A stretch of 63,256 nucleotides of DNA from Blastocatellia bacterium (lineage in GTDB: Bacteria > Acidobacteriota > Blastocatellia > HR10). The notes under the pieces were generated by a model that saw only the letters and a program-made list of their open reading frames with translations, searched no databases and was not told the origin of the DNA. The position numbers were made by a program, and so were the translations under genes. Where the stretch lies: the NCBI GenBank assembly GCA_035573895.1, contig DATLZR010000179.1, forward strand, positions 1 to 63,256, read 5' to 3'. Below, piece after piece: positions 26,744 to 37,925 of this stretch (positions are counted from its first letter, which is position 1; the number at the start of each line of letters is the position of its first letter).

Positions 26744-26785
26744 TGTGTAACGGATTACACACGGGTGGGTAACCGATTACCCACC
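26744..26785. promoter_or_regulatory. Twin palindromic activator sites (UAS), copy A
   Basis: Two palindromes share the core GTAA-N4-TTAC. The first is TGTGTAA/TTACACA with centre CGGA (26744-26761). The second is GGTGGGTAA/TTACCCACC with centre CCGA (26764-26785). Their centres are exactly 22 bp apart, two helical turns. They lie about 75 bp upstream of the sigma-54 -24 element, the right range for an enhancer-binding protein. A TGAAAAATAA tract follows at 26814-26823. The same arrangement recurs at 33269-33348. Confidence 0.75.
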
Positions 26786-26885: not shown

Positions 26886-27476
26886 ATGTTAGAGAGATCG
26901 GTCTACTGTCTGATCTGTCGCCAGTGGGTGAGGGCAGTTAGCGTGGCCGAGGCGGGCCAGACAGAAGGCGTGCATCCCCGGACGATCTATCGCTGGATGG
27001 CACAAGGAAAAATCCATCGCCTTAAAACCTCCAGCAGACAAATCCATATCTGCGAGAATTCGCTTCGGGCCGACAAGCGACCGCGGGGCAACGACCGAAG
27101 GGCTTTCGGTGACGAGCGAATCACACGCTTGCTCGAGTTGATCGAAGAGAACTATCCCGATCCCCGATTGACGCTCAGCAGGGCAAGCCACTGGGTGGGA
27201 CTGTCCATGGAATACGTTTCACGGCGATTCAAACAGGAGACGGGTTGTGGTTTCCGGCAATTTGTCAGGCGGGTGAGGGTAGAGAAAGCCGCTGTGTTGC
27301 TTGTGACAACCGGGCTCAGCATCAAGGAAGTTGCCGCGGCCGTGGGCTATATGCCCCACTGTGTCAGCGAGTTTGATCGTCATTTCAAAGAGACCTACGG
27401 ACTAACGCCCACCCAATATCGTGCCACTGCAAGGAAGGTTCCTGAACAAGGCGGACAGGAGGGGGCTGGTGTCTAG
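26886..27476 (+). CDS. Excisionase-like/AraC hybrid transcriptional regulator
   Basis: A 196-residue DNA-binding protein with two HTH modules and no recognisable effector domain. Residues of about 18-55 (SVAEAGQTEGVHPRTIYRWMAQGKIHRLK) resemble the MerR/excisionase-type winged helix; the segment is described here by its ends and spans 29 residues at 19-47. Residues of about 85-190 are an AraC-family double HTH (LTLSRASHWVGLSMEYVSRR...; VAAAVGYMPHCVSEFDRHFKETYG...TPTQYR). The start is ATG 26886; the Shine-Dalgarno is weak. It is driven by the sigma-54 promoter at 26848 and sits upstream of the Cys-rich peptide, propeller, thioredoxin and permease genes on the same strand, so it is a plausible pathway-specific regulator for them. 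Confidence 0.82.
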   Translation: MLERSVYCLICRQWVRAVSVAEAGQTEGVHPRTIYRWMAQGKIHRLKTSSRQIHICENSLRADKRPRGNDRRAFGDERITRLLELIEENYPDPRLTLSRASHWVGLSMEYVSRRFKQETGCGFRQFVRRVRVEKAAVLLVTTGLSIKEVAAAVGYMPHCVSEFDRHFKETYGLTPTQYRATARKVPEQGGQEGAGV

Positions 27477-28450: not shown

Positions 28451-29575
28451 ATGAACCGTGGCCGTCCATTTACGATATATCTTGCCGTTCTCCCTCTCGG
28501 TGCATTTCTACTTCTTCACTCTGGTTCTAAGACAGAGGGGTTCATCAGTCACCCTCATGTCTTCAGCTCAGAAGAACCATCCGTGAGAGGCAATGAGACT
28601 TTCCAAAAAACCTTCAAGCTGGAGAAGGAATACGTGCTGGAGAAGAAAGCGGGTACTGTCAATCAACTCATTGTTGACAAAGAAGGATACCTCTGGATCC
28701 GAGATTGGGACGAGGGGAAGATCGAGAAATATGATCAGAACGGGAAACTCGTGAGCGCCATCGGGAGTGCCGGTCAGGGTCCGGGGCGATTCCTTTTGCT
28801 CGCCGGTTTCGCCGTGGACGAAGAGAGAAGTCAGGTGTTTGCCATTGATTTGCAGCAACATCGAGTGAACCTCTTCGCAGAGGATGGGAGATTCCTCAAT
28901 TCCTGGATTGTTGCCCGGCCCGGCTACATGCCGCAGGCCATTGTGCTTGACAGCAAGCGAGGATTTTACTATCTGGGCGGTTCTCTCCCATTGAAGAAGT
29001 TTGTAAGCGAAGGAGCTCTCCACGTGCACAAGTATAAAATGGGAACGAACCAGTACCTGGGATCTTTTCTCGAAACTGATCGCAGCATTCACGAAAAGAA
29101 TCTCTTCAATTACCTCGTCGTTTCCTCCCTCGACATAGATTCGCTGGGACATGTCTACTGCACTTTAGCACCCGTTTACAAGGTCTTCAAGATAAACACA
29201 CAGCGGCGCGTGATACACTCTTTTGTTGGGAGGCATCGCTTCTATAAAGCTCCTCCCCTTTATCAGTCCGGTTTGAAGCCCCAGGAAATAAAAAAACTAC
29301 GGGAGACGTGGACGCAGACTGATCGAGTCGTCATCGTAGGGGGGATGGCGATTCTGTCACTGGAGATGCACGAACCTTTTCCTTATGGCCTTGAGGTGTT
29401 TGACCTGAACGGGAACGTCCTCAGGACCGATCTCCTCACCAACGGGCGTTTGGTGGGAAAAGACCACGAAGGGAATCTCTATTTTGCGTTAGTCAAGAAC
29501 GGGCGATACGTGATCGCCAAGTACAGGTTAACCCTCGGGGGAATAGGACAGCTCTTGCGTAAGGGAACAAACTAG
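28451..29575 (+). CDS. Exported six-bladed beta-propeller (NHL-like) protein
   Basis: A 374-residue protein with an N-terminal signal peptide or anchor (FTIYLAVLPLGAFLLLHSG). The body shows recurring propeller strands: VNQLIVDKEGYLWIRDWDEGKIEKYDQNGK, GRFLLLAGFAVDEERSQVFAIDLQQHRVNLFAEDG and LDIDSLGHVYCTLAPVYKVFKIN (each seen as separate blades; residues about 68-270). The family is the NHL/6-bladed propeller group common in Bacteroidetes and acidobacteria, usually secreted and of unknown ligand. It is 23 nt upstream of the thioredoxin-fold gene and probably in the same operon. Base composition is clearly AT-richer than the flanking core genes, which hints at acquisition by transfer. Confidence 0.75.
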   Translation: MNRGRPFTIYLAVLPLGAFLLLHSGSKTEGFISHPHVFSSEEPSVRGNETFQKTFKLEKEYVLEKKAGTVNQLIVDKEGYLWIRDWDEGKIEKYDQNGKLVSAIGSAGQGPGRFLLLAGFAVDEERSQVFAIDLQQHRVNLFAEDGRFLNSWIVARPGYMPQAIVLDSKRGFYYLGGSLPLKKFVSEGALHVHKYKMGTNQYLGSFLETDRSIHEKNLFNYLVVSSLDIDSLGHVYCTLAPVYKVFKINTQRRVIHSFVGRHRFYKAPPLYQSGLKPQEIKKLRETWTQTDRVVIVGGMAILSLEMHEPFPYGLEVFDLNGNVLRTDLLTNGRLVGKDHEGNLYFALVKNGRYVIAKYRLTLGGIGQLLRKGTN

Positions 29576-29598: not shown

Positions 29599-30162
29599 AT
29601 GAACATGCAATCTCGCCTTCCCTCATTACTCTGCGTCGCTTTGGCTTTTCTTAATCTCTTGCTGCTGATTCGAACCCACCAAATGAAATCTTACCTCCAG
29701 AGCATCCCCTGGCATCCCAGCCCCAAAGGGGTATTCGAACTGCTGGAGAGATCGCGGTCTTGGAAAAGTACACACGGAGCGAATCCCTCTGTACAAACAG
29801 CCTCCCGGTACGTGCTTCTTCTCATCTTTGAACCCACCGACTGCTCGCTCTGCCTGGAAGAGCTCTTCACGCTCAATGAACTTCAAGGACAAGTACCTCG
29901 GCAGAGGCTACAAATCATAGGCGTCGCCTCTCATACTTCCACTGAGGAACTCCGAAAGCTGGCCGATGCCTATGGAGTGAGTTTCCCACTCCTCCTCGAT
30001 GAGTCTTCATCGGCTCGGAGACTTCTGGGGCTGGCGGAGACGCCTTGGAAAGTTCTGGTGGATCGTGAAGATCATCGTATAATTTTTGATATGGGCCCCA
30101 GCCTCTGGGAAGTTGAGAGACAGTTTTTCTCTCTGAGAGTGATGCGGATCGTTAAGGGCTGA
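29599..30162 (+). CDS. Membrane-anchored thioredoxin-fold (TlpA/redoxin-like) protein
   Basis: A 187-residue protein. An N-terminal hydrophobic helix (LLCVALAFLNLLLLI) anchors it, with the rest predicted outside the inner membrane. The thioredoxin fold shows strand LLLIFEPTDC, the CxxC pair in DCSLCLEEL, IIGVASHTSTEELRKLADAYGVSFPLLLDE and the cis-Pro-type TPWKVLVD (segments from residues 70-160). CSLC differs from the usual TlpA WCxPC, so redox properties may be unusual. It lies between the propeller gene and the ABC permease (3-nt gap), so redox handling of an exported cysteine-containing partner, possibly the CxC peptide upstream, is a reasonable guess. Confidence 0.75.
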   Translation: MNMQSRLPSLLCVALAFLNLLLLIRTHQMKSYLQSIPWHPSPKGVFELLERSRSWKSTHGANPSVQTASRYVLLLIFEPTDCSLCLEELFTLNELQGQVPRQRLQIIGVASHTSTEELRKLADAYGVSFPLLLDESSSARRLLGLAETPWKVLVDREDHRIIFDMGPSLWEVERQFFSLRVMRIVKG

Positions 30163-30165
30163 ACT

Positions 30166-31608
30166 ATGCTGAGGCTGCTGGTGAGAAAGGAGGTCCTCGA
30201 AAGCATCCTTTCATTCAAGTTTATCCTCGTCCTTGCGGTAACGATCACCTTGACCCTTCTGAGCATCAGCATGGGTCTGAACGAGTACTGGGCTCAAGTG
30301 AGAGCGCACAGTAACGTGGTGCAATTAAACAGGGATCAACTGGAACGTTCCACTGATTGGCATCAAGTCGGTCGCGCTGGAATCTTTGTCTCAAGGGTTC
30401 CCAGCTCGCCAGCGGTGTTCGCGACAGGAATTTTTGGGATTGCAGGCCAGGTAGCGAGAATCATAGATCGTGACGTGCCGGTAATTGAACGGGGACGCTT
30501 AGCCACCAATTCAGCCTTCATGCTCTTCGGGAGTTGGGATTTTCACTTTATGGTGAAAATCATTTTGAGTCTGGTGGCGTTGCTTTTTGCCTATGACGCC
30601 GTATCCGGGGAGAAAGAGATAGGTACCCTACGGTTGCTCTTAAGCAATCCCCTCCCGCGCAGCCGACTCATTCTCGGAAAGGCCTTGGGCAGATATCTTC
30701 CCCTCCTCACTGCTTTTACCCTCGCATTCATTCTTGGTGTGATATTTCTTTTTCTCCAAAGCGACATAACTTTTACGGTGAATGACCAACTGGGTATTCT
30801 TCTTATTTTTTTGGGCTCCTGCGTTTACCTTGGAGTCTGGTTCACCGTAGGACTTATGGCCTCATGTTTGACGAACCAGTCTCTAGTCTCTTTGCTTTTG
30901 TCATTATTCTTATGGATGTTGCTGATTTTTGCTATTCCCAAGGCGAGCATCTCTGTGGCAAGTTTTCTTCACCCCGTCCCCACCCCTGCCGAACTTGAGG
31001 CAAAGAAGGCCGCGTTGGCCAAGGATATGTATATCAAGCTCATGTTGAGCCAGGAGGAGCCCCTCCGACGCTGGATGAAGCGCCCTCCTGGGGACGTACC
31101 GGCTGAGGAGCTCTATCGAAGGCAGGTGGAATTCGAGAAGGAAGCTGGCCGCTTAAGACAACTGAACGAGGCGGAACATGCTGAGAAGCTCTATAGGCTC
31201 TACGAGCAATATCTGAGCGCACAAAGGGCCTTGGATCGAACAGCGTCTAGGTTGTCGCGTCTTTCTCCCTCTGGTTGCTATGACTATTTCATAACAGGGC
31301 TCGCTGGAACTGGTCCCCGTGATGCGGATTTTTTCCTCGATCAGCTAATCGAATACCAAAAGAGGTTTAGTAGCTTCATCAGTGATATGAAGCTTAAGCA
31401 GGAAATCGTCTATGTCGTCTACGTGCAGGAAGACCCATTCAAGCAAACGCGCCCTGATCTGAGTAAAATTCCTCCGTTTGATTATAAGACGCGGCCCTGG
31501 AGGGAGCGCTGGACATTAGGGATAGCGGATCTTGGCCTGCTGTGCCTGTATATCACGGTGTTGTTCTCCGTGACCTATCTGAGTTTCTTGAAATATGATC
31601 CAAGATGA
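30166..31608 (+). CDS. ABC-2 type transporter permease (DUF3526-like)
   Basis: A 480-residue permease. A first membrane helix (ILVLAVTITLTLLSISMGL) precedes a periplasmic segment, then a block of helices including WDFHFMVKIILSLVALLFAYDAVSGEKEIGTLRLLL, where the GEKEIGTLR motif is typical of ABC-2 permeases that pair with an ABC ATPase. A large second extracytoplasmic region (about 285-445, with a charged coiled-coil-like part) is followed by a last helix ending SFLKYDPR. No ATPase gene is in this cluster; the one at 35184 is the nearest candidate. The stop overlaps the start of a 32-codon mini-ORF (ATGA). Confidence 0.82.
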   Translation: MLRLLVRKEVLESILSFKFILVLAVTITLTLLSISMGLNEYWAQVRAHSNVVQLNRDQLERSTDWHQVGRAGIFVSRVPSSPAVFATGIFGIAGQVARIIDRDVPVIERGRLATNSAFMLFGSWDFHFMVKIILSLVALLFAYDAVSGEKEIGTLRLLLSNPLPRSRLILGKALGRYLPLLTAFTLAFILGVIFLFLQSDITFTVNDQLGILLIFLGSCVYLGVWFTVGLMASCLTNQSLVSLLLSLFLWMLLIFAIPKASISVASFLHPVPTPAELEAKKAALAKDMYIKLMLSQEEPLRRWMKRPPGDVPAEELYRRQVEFEKEAGRLRQLNEAEHAEKLYRLYEQYLSAQRALDRTASRLSRLSPSGCYDYFITGLAGTGPRDADFFLDQLIEYQKRFSSFISDMKLKQEIVYVVYVQEDPFKQTRPDLSKIPPFDYKTRPWRERWTLGIADLGLLCLYITVLFSVTYLSFLKYDPR

Positions 31609-31703
31609 GCTTTGCTCCCCCCGCGCTCGCTTCGTTGGTGTTATGGATGTCGGTCCTTGGGCTTGCCGCCTATTGGCGCTTTGAGCATTACGACCTCAGA
31701 TGA
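31605..31703 (+). CDS. 32-residue micro-ORF equal to the C-terminal tail of an ABC-2 permease
   Basis: ATG 31605 overlaps the preceding permease stop (ATGA), and its own stop TGA 31701-31703 overlaps the next permease start ATG 31700 (ATGA again). The product is one hydrophobic helix followed by YWRFEHYDLR. That ending matches the last helix and tail of the intact permeases in the window (SFLKYDPR, FARYDVR). The simplest reading is a large in-frame deletion of a middle permease gene that kept its first codons and last about 30 codons. It could still be translated as a single-helix membrane peptide. Confidence 0.5.
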   Translation: MSFAPPALASLVLWMSVLGLAAYWRFEHYDLR

Positions 31704-33063
31704 GGACGTTCGGGGTCATCTTTCGCCAAGAGCTTCACCAGGCGCTGACGACGTTCGCTTCTCCCTTCATCCTGGTGACTTTGACCGCGCTCATCCCACC
31801 GAGCGCCCACATCCAGGCGCACTTTTACCAGCATGCCCTCTCGGATTATGCCCTTCGTCAAGCGGCCCATCGGGAGGAAACGACAAGCGGGCGGCTCATC
31901 ATCACATGCCCGGTCCTCCCTCTCCTGCCCCTCTCCAATGGGCTTGTCGGCCGGCTGCCCGACGAGATCGTTCTCCTGCGTGAATCAGCTTCCTGGACAC
32001 CAACCAGCGAGGACCTTCGATTCCTGGACTGGCTCTTCTCCGGGGTTGACTTGATCGTGATCGTGGGTGTGCTGATGACACTGATGGCCTCGCTCATGAC
32101 ATATAACACCGTGACGGGAGAGCGAGAGCAGGGCACGTTAAAGCAGGTCCTGTCTTACTCGCTCCCACGACATACCATCCTGGGAGGTAAGCTGGCAGCA
32201 TCGGTTTTCCTCCTCACACTCAGCGTGTTCTATGCTGTTTCCCATACACCGCTTTGATCATCGCTTTCAGTGGCGGGATGTTTCGTCTCTCCCGGATCGA
32301 GGTTGCGGAAGTTCTGGCTATAGCAGTCATTGGAATGTTGGCCGTAAGCGTCTTCGCACTTCTTGGCCTCGCCATCTCTACTCTCGTGCGATCATCGGCG
32401 ACAGCGCTTGCTCTCTGGCTGACGATCTGGGTATCAGCGGTCCTTCTGTGGCCAAGCTGTGTCGGCTACCTGGCAGCTCCTCTCTGGCCCGTGGAACCCC
32501 GGCAGCTCGCGCGGCGCGAGCTTCTCACCCAGGAGGCGAGGCTTATTCGGAATGAGCTGGCTGATTACAGAAAAAGAGCAGCAGAACTAAGCTTGCAAGG
32601 GGCAGGCGTGAAGCACGCATGGGAACAACACCTGGAGATCAAGCGGCGCTAAAATGAGCGCAAGAGAGAAGAGATAAGGCGCGTGATGGCAGAGCAAGAT
32701 TCACCGTCAACAGACCCGGGGGATGGGGCTCGTTCTCCTCTCTCCTTATGGAGCCCTCCGAATTGCTTCGGACACCATCTGTCGGACCGGAGTGTAGGCC
32801 CATGACCTGTTCCTGACGGAAGTCGCTCGATACGAAAGAGAAGAATTCACCCAAAAAGTTTTCAGGCCCTCGCCCAGCAACAACCTGGAGACATGGAAGG
32901 AAAACCTGCTGCCTCGGTCTCGTTCCGACCGTTCAGTCTTTCACCGCCCTCTCTGCGGACCAGACTGACAACCGTGGCCGCGCCCGTCAGCGTCCTCATC
33001 CTCGAAATGGCCATCTTGTGGCTGATTAGCCTCTTTCGATTTCACCGCTACGACGTGCGGTAA
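31700..33063 (+). pseudogene. Decayed ABC-2 permease, frameshifted
   Basis: The first frame (31700-32257) encodes the permease N-terminus, including MASLMTYNTVTGEREQGTLK, and then stops. A -1 shift near 32243 continues it as FPYTALIIAFSGGMF into the frame 32254-32652 (membrane helices, then EPRQLARRELLTQEARLIRNE from the extracytoplasmic loop). After the stop at 32650 further fragments of the loop are visible (FLTEVARYEREEF around 32808), and the terminal helix with tail LFRFHRYDVR ends at TAA 33061-33063. At least two frameshifts and a stop separate the pieces, so a functional protein is unlikely. A sequencing error could explain one break but not all. Confidence 0.75.
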
Positions 33064-33268: not shown

Positions 33269-33311
33269 GTGGGTAATCAGTTACACACCAGTGTGTAACC
33301 GATTACACACT
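33269..33311. promoter_or_regulatory. Twin palindromic activator sites (UAS), copy B
   Basis: The first palindrome is GTGGGTAA/TTACACAC with centre TCAG (33269-33288). The second is AGTGTGTAA/TTACACACT with centre CCGA (33290-33311), perfect over 9-bp arms. Centres are 22 bp apart, the same spacing as in copy A (26744-26785). The TGAAAAATAA tract follows at 33339-33348, about 39 bp from the second palindrome centre as in copy A. The sigma-54 promoter lies 84 bp downstream. Confidence 0.75.
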
Positions 33312-36395: not shown

Positions 36396-37925
36396 ATGGC
36401 CAGGACCTACGCACCCGCTCGTTCTCAGTTCGGCGCTGCCACTGCGCCCAGCGGTAGGCGCGTCGTGAAGACCATCGCCCTGCGGGAACTGACGGAGCAA
36501 CTGACGAGCTTGCGGTTTTTGATCATCACGCTGCTCCTGGTCGGACTCACACCACTGGCCGTGTATGTGGGAGCGCGGGACTATACCAACCGGCTTGAGG
36601 ATTACAACCGACTGGTAGCGGAGCAGCAGGAACTGATAGCAGGACCTGTCGGCAAACAGGTTCGAGGGATTGACGAACTATTTACATCGCAGAATGAACT
36701 CGCTGTGTTGCGGACGCTTCGACCGCCTGAGCCGCTGAGCGTGCTGGTTCGAGGCCTTGACGGTGTTCTCCCTGAGTACTGGGACTTCTCCCCCGCGGGG
36801 CTCATAGTGGGGCCGCCACCTTCGCGGGCGCACCGGCTGGCTGACCTGCTGGGCCAGCTCGACCTGGAATTTTTGGTCCGTGTCGCGCTGGGTCTGTTAG
36901 CCATTTCACTGGCGTTCGACGCGGTAGCCGGGGAGAAAGAGCTGGGCACACTGCGCGTTGCCCTCAGCCAGCCGATCTCACGTTCAGCATTTCTAGCCGG
37001 CAAGTTGGCCGGTGGTTCAATCACGCTCCTGGTTCCGCTCATCACTGCGTTCCTGCTGGCGCTGCTCAGCGCCCAGCTTTTTGACCTGAATCTGTTGGCT
37101 GCTGACACCCTGAAGAAGGTCGCGCTCATTGCCGCTACATCGAGCACCTATTTGGTTTGCTTCTATGCGCTGGGTCTCGTCGTTTCCTCTCTGGCTACGA
37201 GCCAGAAAACATCGCTGGTGGTGCTTCTGGTCATTTGGGTGGTAGCTGTACTGACTGTTCCTCCGCTGTCCACTCTTGTGGCTCAGGCAATCTCGCCAGT
37301 ACCGCCCGGGCATGCTGTCCAGGCGAAGAAGCGAGCGCTGGATGAAGACATCCGCCGCCAGGCAGAACGGGCCATGGGTGATATTTTCAGAGAGGTGACG
37401 GGACAGGACCGTATGGTGGGCACCAGTCTGTATCTGCAACACAAAGAAGCTATTGACCGTCAAATCGCACCGATCGTCACCAACTATGTCAGTAAGCGGC
37501 GTCAGCTTCTTGGCGAACTAGAGCGTGATGCCGAGCGGCGAACCACTCAGCAAAATGAAATAGCCCGAGCGATCATGGCGCTCAGTCCGGCGGCGGTGTT
37601 TGCGGGCGCCGCAGCAGATCTGGGCGGGACTGGCGATACTTACGCCAAGGCCTGGCTTGAAGCTGTGCGTCAGTACCAGAGCCGATTGAACGCGGCGCTC
37701 TTTGATGATCCGCCAGTGGTGCAGATGAGATTGAGGAACATGAGCATGGCGCTCGAACGGCTTCAACCACCGCCGCTGACGCGCCTGCCAGGCTCCGTTT
37801 CGCCCCGACGCAACACGACTGCGGCTATCGAGCGGGCGCTCCCGGCGTTGGGCTCGCTGGCACTGTACACTGGCCTTTTTATCGTTGGCGGATTTGTCGC
37901 CTTCGCGCGCTACGACGTGAGGTGA
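36396..37925 (+). CDS. ABC-2 type transporter permease (DUF3526-like)
   Basis: A 509-residue permease related in layout to that at 30166. The N-terminal helix (FLIITLLLVGLTPLAVYVG) is followed by a periplasmic loop, then helices with the ABC-2 motif AFDAVAGEKELGTLRVALSQ and several more membrane spans (IAATSSTYLVCFYALGLVVS, LVVLLVIWVVAVLTVPPL). A large charged extracytoplasmic region spans about 300-470, and the last helix ends FARYDVR. The start is ATG 36396 with GGGGAG upstream. It probably partners the ATPase at 35184 and the NEW3 protein. The substrate is unknown; family members are linked to export of peptides, proteins or copper (NosY-type), none of which can be chosen here. Confidence 0.83.
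   Translation: MARTYAPARSQFGAATAPSGRRVVKTIALRELTEQLTSLRFLIITLLLVGLTPLAVYVGARDYTNRLEDYNRLVAEQQELIAGPVGKQVRGIDELFTSQNELAVLRTLRPPEPLSVLVRGLDGVLPEYWDFSPAGLIVGPPPSRAHRLADLLGQLDLEFLVRVALGLLAISLAFDAVAGEKELGTLRVALSQPISRSAFLAGKLAGGSITLLVPLITAFLLALLSAQLFDLNLLAADTLKKVALIAATSSTYLVCFYALGLVVSSLATSQKTSLVVLLVIWVVAVLTVPPLSTLVAQAISPVPPGHAVQAKKRALDEDIRRQAERAMGDIFREVTGQDRMVGTSLYLQHKEAIDRQIAPIVTNYVSKRRQLLGELERDAERRTTQQNEIARAIMALSPAAVFAGAAADLGGTGDTYAKAWLEAVRQYQSRLNAALFDDPPVVQMRLRNMSMALERLQPPPLTRLPGSVSPRRNTTAAIERALPALGSLALYTGLFIVGGFVAFARYDVR

Follow-up and report, generated by a model that had tools for sequence, protein, structure and literature searches.

Gene pairs sharing an ATGA stop-start overlap are described as coupled by termination-reinitiation (PMC6728339), bacterial gene remnants and pseudogenes form another described class (PMC522871), and ABC-2 permeases occur in pairs (PF12679 with DUF3526, PF12040) such as permA'-permB of Bacterium HR10 (G002:C2). 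No literature treating DUF3526 together with ABC transporter permease was found. The window analyzed here, a stretch of 63,256 nt from a Blastocatellia bacterium, contains a 32-codon micro-ORF that can be compared with each of these. It resembles the coupled pairs in having a 4-nt overlap, in this case at both ends, but the gene following its second overlap is a pseudogene. Like the remnants, it is homologous to part of a full-length gene and adjoins a disabled gene; unlike them, it happens to form an open frame that overlaps its neighbors at start and stop. The HR10 permease pair shares with it the tail homology and the 3' ATGA overlap, although the micro-ORF keeps only about 29 of the 445 residues.

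The micro-ORF lies between an intact permease gene and a broken one (see the table). The ATGA overlaps described in the earlier note are present at both ends: each junction reads AGATGA, with the stop of the 480-aa permease (TGA) sharing bases with the ATG of the micro-ORF, whose own TGA in turn runs into the ATG at 31700. No earlier start is available in this frame, and a same-frame stop is located three codons 5' of the ATG (31596-31598). As a bare ORF the micro-ORF is unremarkable given the 134 ORFs of at least 30 aa that overlap the 11 kb around it. A scan of the fetched loci for short tail ORFs with NTGA at start and end (N = A, G or T, a pattern laxer than ATGA) returned many that are mere ends of longer permease frames, including a 53-codon tail ORF with ATGA at both ends inside a G020 permease frame (L044). 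A Pfam search with the 32-aa peptide, which may be too short to be recognized, gave no family, PF12679 included (E up to 1); NCBIfam models likewise gave no hit (E up to 0.1). Judged by eye, the peptide looks like a membrane helix.

Table. Features of the micro-ORF locus (window coordinates)
Feature	Position	Strand	Remarks
6-bladed beta-propeller protein	28451-29575	+	First gene of the propeller-redoxin-permease unit
AhpC/TSA redoxin-like protein	29599-30162	+	Same unit as the 480-aa permease
ABC-2 permease, intact, 480 aa	30166-31608	+	Ends KYDPR; same clade as the YDPR-tailed permeases in G020:C61 and G021:C93
Micro-ORF, putative 3' stub of lost permease permA'	31605-31703	+	32 codons + TGA; residues 4-32 homologous to the permA' C-terminus
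Putative junction	31609-31613	.	Left, end of the 480-aa permease; right, permA'-tail homology from codon 4, base 31614
permB pseudogene	31700-33063	+	Relative of the G002:C2 and G160:C478 permB; 3 frameshifts, 2 in-frame stops; ends RFHRYDVR

Alignment of the last 29 residues of the micro-ORF with the C-terminus of the full-length ABC-2 permease permA' of Bacterium HR10, a genome of the same family, gave 18 identical positions (60-62%), which bears out the earlier description of the micro-ORF as the tail of a permease-family protein. The ungapped BLOSUM62 score was 106, compared with 53, 52, and 50 for the next three in a ranking drawn from 52 collected candidate ends (the best 40 of the 52 were listed, 31 of which are permease tails by eye). 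Ranks two and three are also permA' orthologs, from G160 (53) and G021:C59 (52), whereas the fourth ortholog, from G161, scored 44, no better than other permease clades. The tails of the two adjacent permeases, each with 10 identical positions over 26 residues, scored 52 (permB) and 35 (the 480-aa permease). In view of the values for G161 and for the window's own permB, the specificity of the permA' assignment appears to rest on the HR10 match.

When permA' of HR10 (459-aa frame) was searched against the genome of the window, the micro-ORF was found (E = 7.9e-6, 60% identity); a further 10 matches (E up to 1), located in other parts of the contig or on other contigs, were all at 27-33%. With nothing above 33%, the genome, which is 97% complete, thus showed no detached N-terminal part of permA'. 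With the micro-ORF as query against five relatives, two matches were obtained, in HR10 (E 1.3e-8) and G160 (E 0.06), both within full-length frames. Over the 29 codons, DNA sites identical to HR10 numbered 18, 24, and 9 of 29 at codon positions 1, 2, and 3, a pattern of protein constraint that is expected mostly from the time before truncation. Codons 2-3 have no match to the permA' tail. Judging from these sequence comparisons, the homology to the permA' end can be regarded as not due to chance. The features of a gene remnant were thus found in the micro-ORF: homology to an intact gene, specific over paralogs; the same neighbor; and the absence of the rest of the gene.

The permA' of HR10 is full-length (445 aa from its likely start), matches PF12679 at 2.5e-26, and adjoins a permB ortholog through the same AGATGA overlap as that at the 3' end of the micro-ORF. 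A class-wide search found permA' matches with E below 1e-60 in 4 of 162 genomes (HR10, G160, G161, and G021), and in all four the next permease gene belongs to the permB clade. The spacing between the two varies: they overlap in HR10, the start comes directly after the stop in G021, and about 225 nt (G161) or about 380 nt (G160) separate them in the other two genomes. By eye, the gap in G160:C478 (L067 3400-3700) contains short repeated units resembling GATCTGACG. In a tree of 24 permeases, these four genomes make up both a permA' clade (100/100) and a permB clade (99/97), each of which splits as ((HR10,G160),(G021,G161)). The permB fragment of the window was left out of the tree and was placed by pairwise identity, which is 42% to HR10 (first 181 residues), 41% to G160:C478 (171 residues), and 36% to G161. 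Since permA' and permB are adjacent in the relatives, the micro-ORF occupies the position expected of permA', and it is probably the stub of the lost upstream partner of permB. The full-length relatives with which the earlier note proposed to compare the micro-ORF therefore exist, in HR10, G160, G161, and G021, and permA' is the middle of three permeases in G021:C59 and G161:C132. The G021:C59 array also includes a 128-aa ORF (L073 3020-3406), which by eye resembles a permease N-terminus and is perhaps a remnant of decay. The only same-genus genome among the six of the family search is that of the window itself.

The downstream gene permB carries three frameshifts and two in-frame stops in 1361 nt when compared with permB of HR10 (194 identical residues in 459 aligned columns). 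A permB search of 396 genomes of the phylum at E up to 1e-40 returned one match, the window's own, HR10 evidently being outside that sample; a search of wider genome contigs returned one locus, in Bacterium HR10 at 100% identity, which is taken to be G002. The stop-start overlap of a translationally coupled operon member was found here, but not its intact downstream gene, permB being broken. Because permB is a pseudogene, translational coupling would serve no intact gene. From its lesion density, about 0.35 lesions are expected per 96 nt, and by simple arithmetic the stub is lesion-free with a probability of about 0.7. Other members of such permease arrays seem to decay too. A paralogous second locus in the same genome (L024 4937-9276, G000:C126) comprises an HTH-like protein, a broken first permease, and an open second permease, and also encodes a protein only weakly similar to the redoxin of the window (37.5% over 32 residues, E 0.03).

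The upstream unit has different relatives. The 480-aa permease matches PF12679 (ABC2_membrane_2) at 1.1e-27 and falls in one clade with the permeases in G020:C61 and G021:C93 that likewise end in YDPR (100/100, 35% identity); it belongs to another clade than permA'. The order propeller, redoxin, permease is common to the window and to these two loci, to which the propeller of the window is 28% and 26% identical and its redoxin 34% and 32% over about 113 residues. Downstream of the G020 and G021 units, the 4.9 and 4.5 kb covered contain no further permease; the permeases of these units end in CGG-TGA, and ATGG comes next, without an ATGA overlap. In the window, homology changes from the end of the 480-aa permease to the permA' tail between 31608 and 31614. 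Near the junction GC content rises from about 50% to about 57-60%; it is 50.0% for the 480-aa permease, 57.3% for the micro-ORF, and 58.4% for the initial part of permB. In synonymous codon usage, the 32 codons scored -3.0 nats, towards the upstream unit and within both control ranges (54% of 28 segments from the 480-aa permease equaled or exceeded this score, and 23% of 30 segments from the permease at 36396 equaled it or fell below it). With the GC step visible and codon usage within both control ranges, composition was not taken to prove that the upstream unit is foreign.

The surroundings also contain repeats and a regulator gene. Two families of direct repeats flank a 6.5-kb stretch at 26.7-33.3 kb, and an imperfect inverted repeat pair has one arm at 31701-31718. 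Palindromic sites similar to GTGTAACCGATTACAC are present at 26745-26760, 33271-33286, and 33293-33308; they precede the two neighboring operons and lie inside the diverged direct repeats on either side of about 26.7-33.3 kb. With up to one mismatch, three such sites occur in the genome, and none was found for a reversed control pattern. They look like candidates for a shared operator. Shortly after the left site, a regulator (26886-27476) combines an HTH_17-like N-terminal part, below the Pfam cut-off, with an AraC-type HTH_18 domain. A distant DNA search of plasmids gave no match.

The micro-ORF is, with high probability, a non-functional remnant of permA', by whatever route it came about. 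Most likely, a deletion or recombination fused a separate propeller-redoxin-permease unit, at the point where its 480-aa permease terminates, to the final codons of permA', which would have removed about 415 codons if this gene equaled the HR10 gene in length. The 3' ATGA would have been inherited from the permA'-permB pair, the 5' ATGA would have arisen from an upstream gene that ends in AGA then TGA with the stub in the right frame, and permB would have decayed as well. Since the upstream gene ends in AGA-TGA, the ATG of the micro-ORF was formed there and need not be an old start. An open stub needs only the right frame (a 1/3 chance) and escape from lesions (about 0.7), so that no selection is needed. 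The claim of the earlier note that start, stop, and overlaps had been preserved for a purpose is not supported: the start consists of the last Arg codon and the stop of the upstream gene, and the 3' overlap is that of permA' and permB in HR10. The absence of any lesion in the stub and the retention of both overlaps count against the remnant reading. That the micro-ORF derives from the end of a lost permease is nevertheless well supported; we infer the route and order of events and the absence of peptide function, and the stub may still be translated by termination-reinitiation.

A possible but rather doubtful route, whose share falls within the remnant reading, is an in-frame deletion inside a standing three-permease array, such that the start of the micro-ORF is the old start of the middle permease. 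The middle position of permA' in G021:C59 and G161:C132 fits such an event, as does the additional 128-aa ORF of the former array, which by eye resembles a permease N-terminus. However, the first permease of those arrays falls in another clade than the 480-aa permease of the window, a type that in G020 and G021 is the last permease of its unit; moreover, codons 2-3 have no match in the permA' tail, and AGA-TGA accounts for the ATG.

An assembly collapse or chimera of tandem permease genes is very unlikely, even though the assembly is a draft of 184 contigs. A collapse would need a shared k-mer, but no direct repeat of at least 16 nt was found at the junction (26-34 kb), which rules against a repeat-mediated event, and the switch between permease clades takes place within about 6 nt.

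Slightly less probable again is that selection has kept the micro-ORF as a functional peptide of one helix or as a translational relay. The open frame with its two ATGA overlaps would fit such a role, as would the 62% identity to the HR10 tail with codon positions 1 and 2 better kept than position 3, but this constraint is expected from the earlier time as part of permA', the downstream permB is broken, and at 5 lesions in 1361 nt a stretch of 96 nt escapes with a probability of about 0.7. In addition, a free-standing tail ORF was absent from the five relatives searched, the two matches both lying in full-length frames. The proposals of preserved coupling across the operon and of a single-helix regulatory peptide found no support. 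The specific version in which coupling to the 480-aa permease drives translation of the stub, and the C-terminal helix of the stub still packs against, or competes for, a permease partner, which if true would make it a gene reduced to a regulatory helix, is the least credible of all.

The remnant of permA' thus most likely represents ordinary gene decay in an ABC-2 permease array and not a novel type of peptide. Where a remnant lies in frame after AGA-TGA, a short ORF that cleanly overlaps both neighbors can result as a by-product. This calls for caution in small-ORF surveys, in which the ATG formed by an AGA-TGA overlap makes an in-frame remnant look like a coupled micro-ORF.
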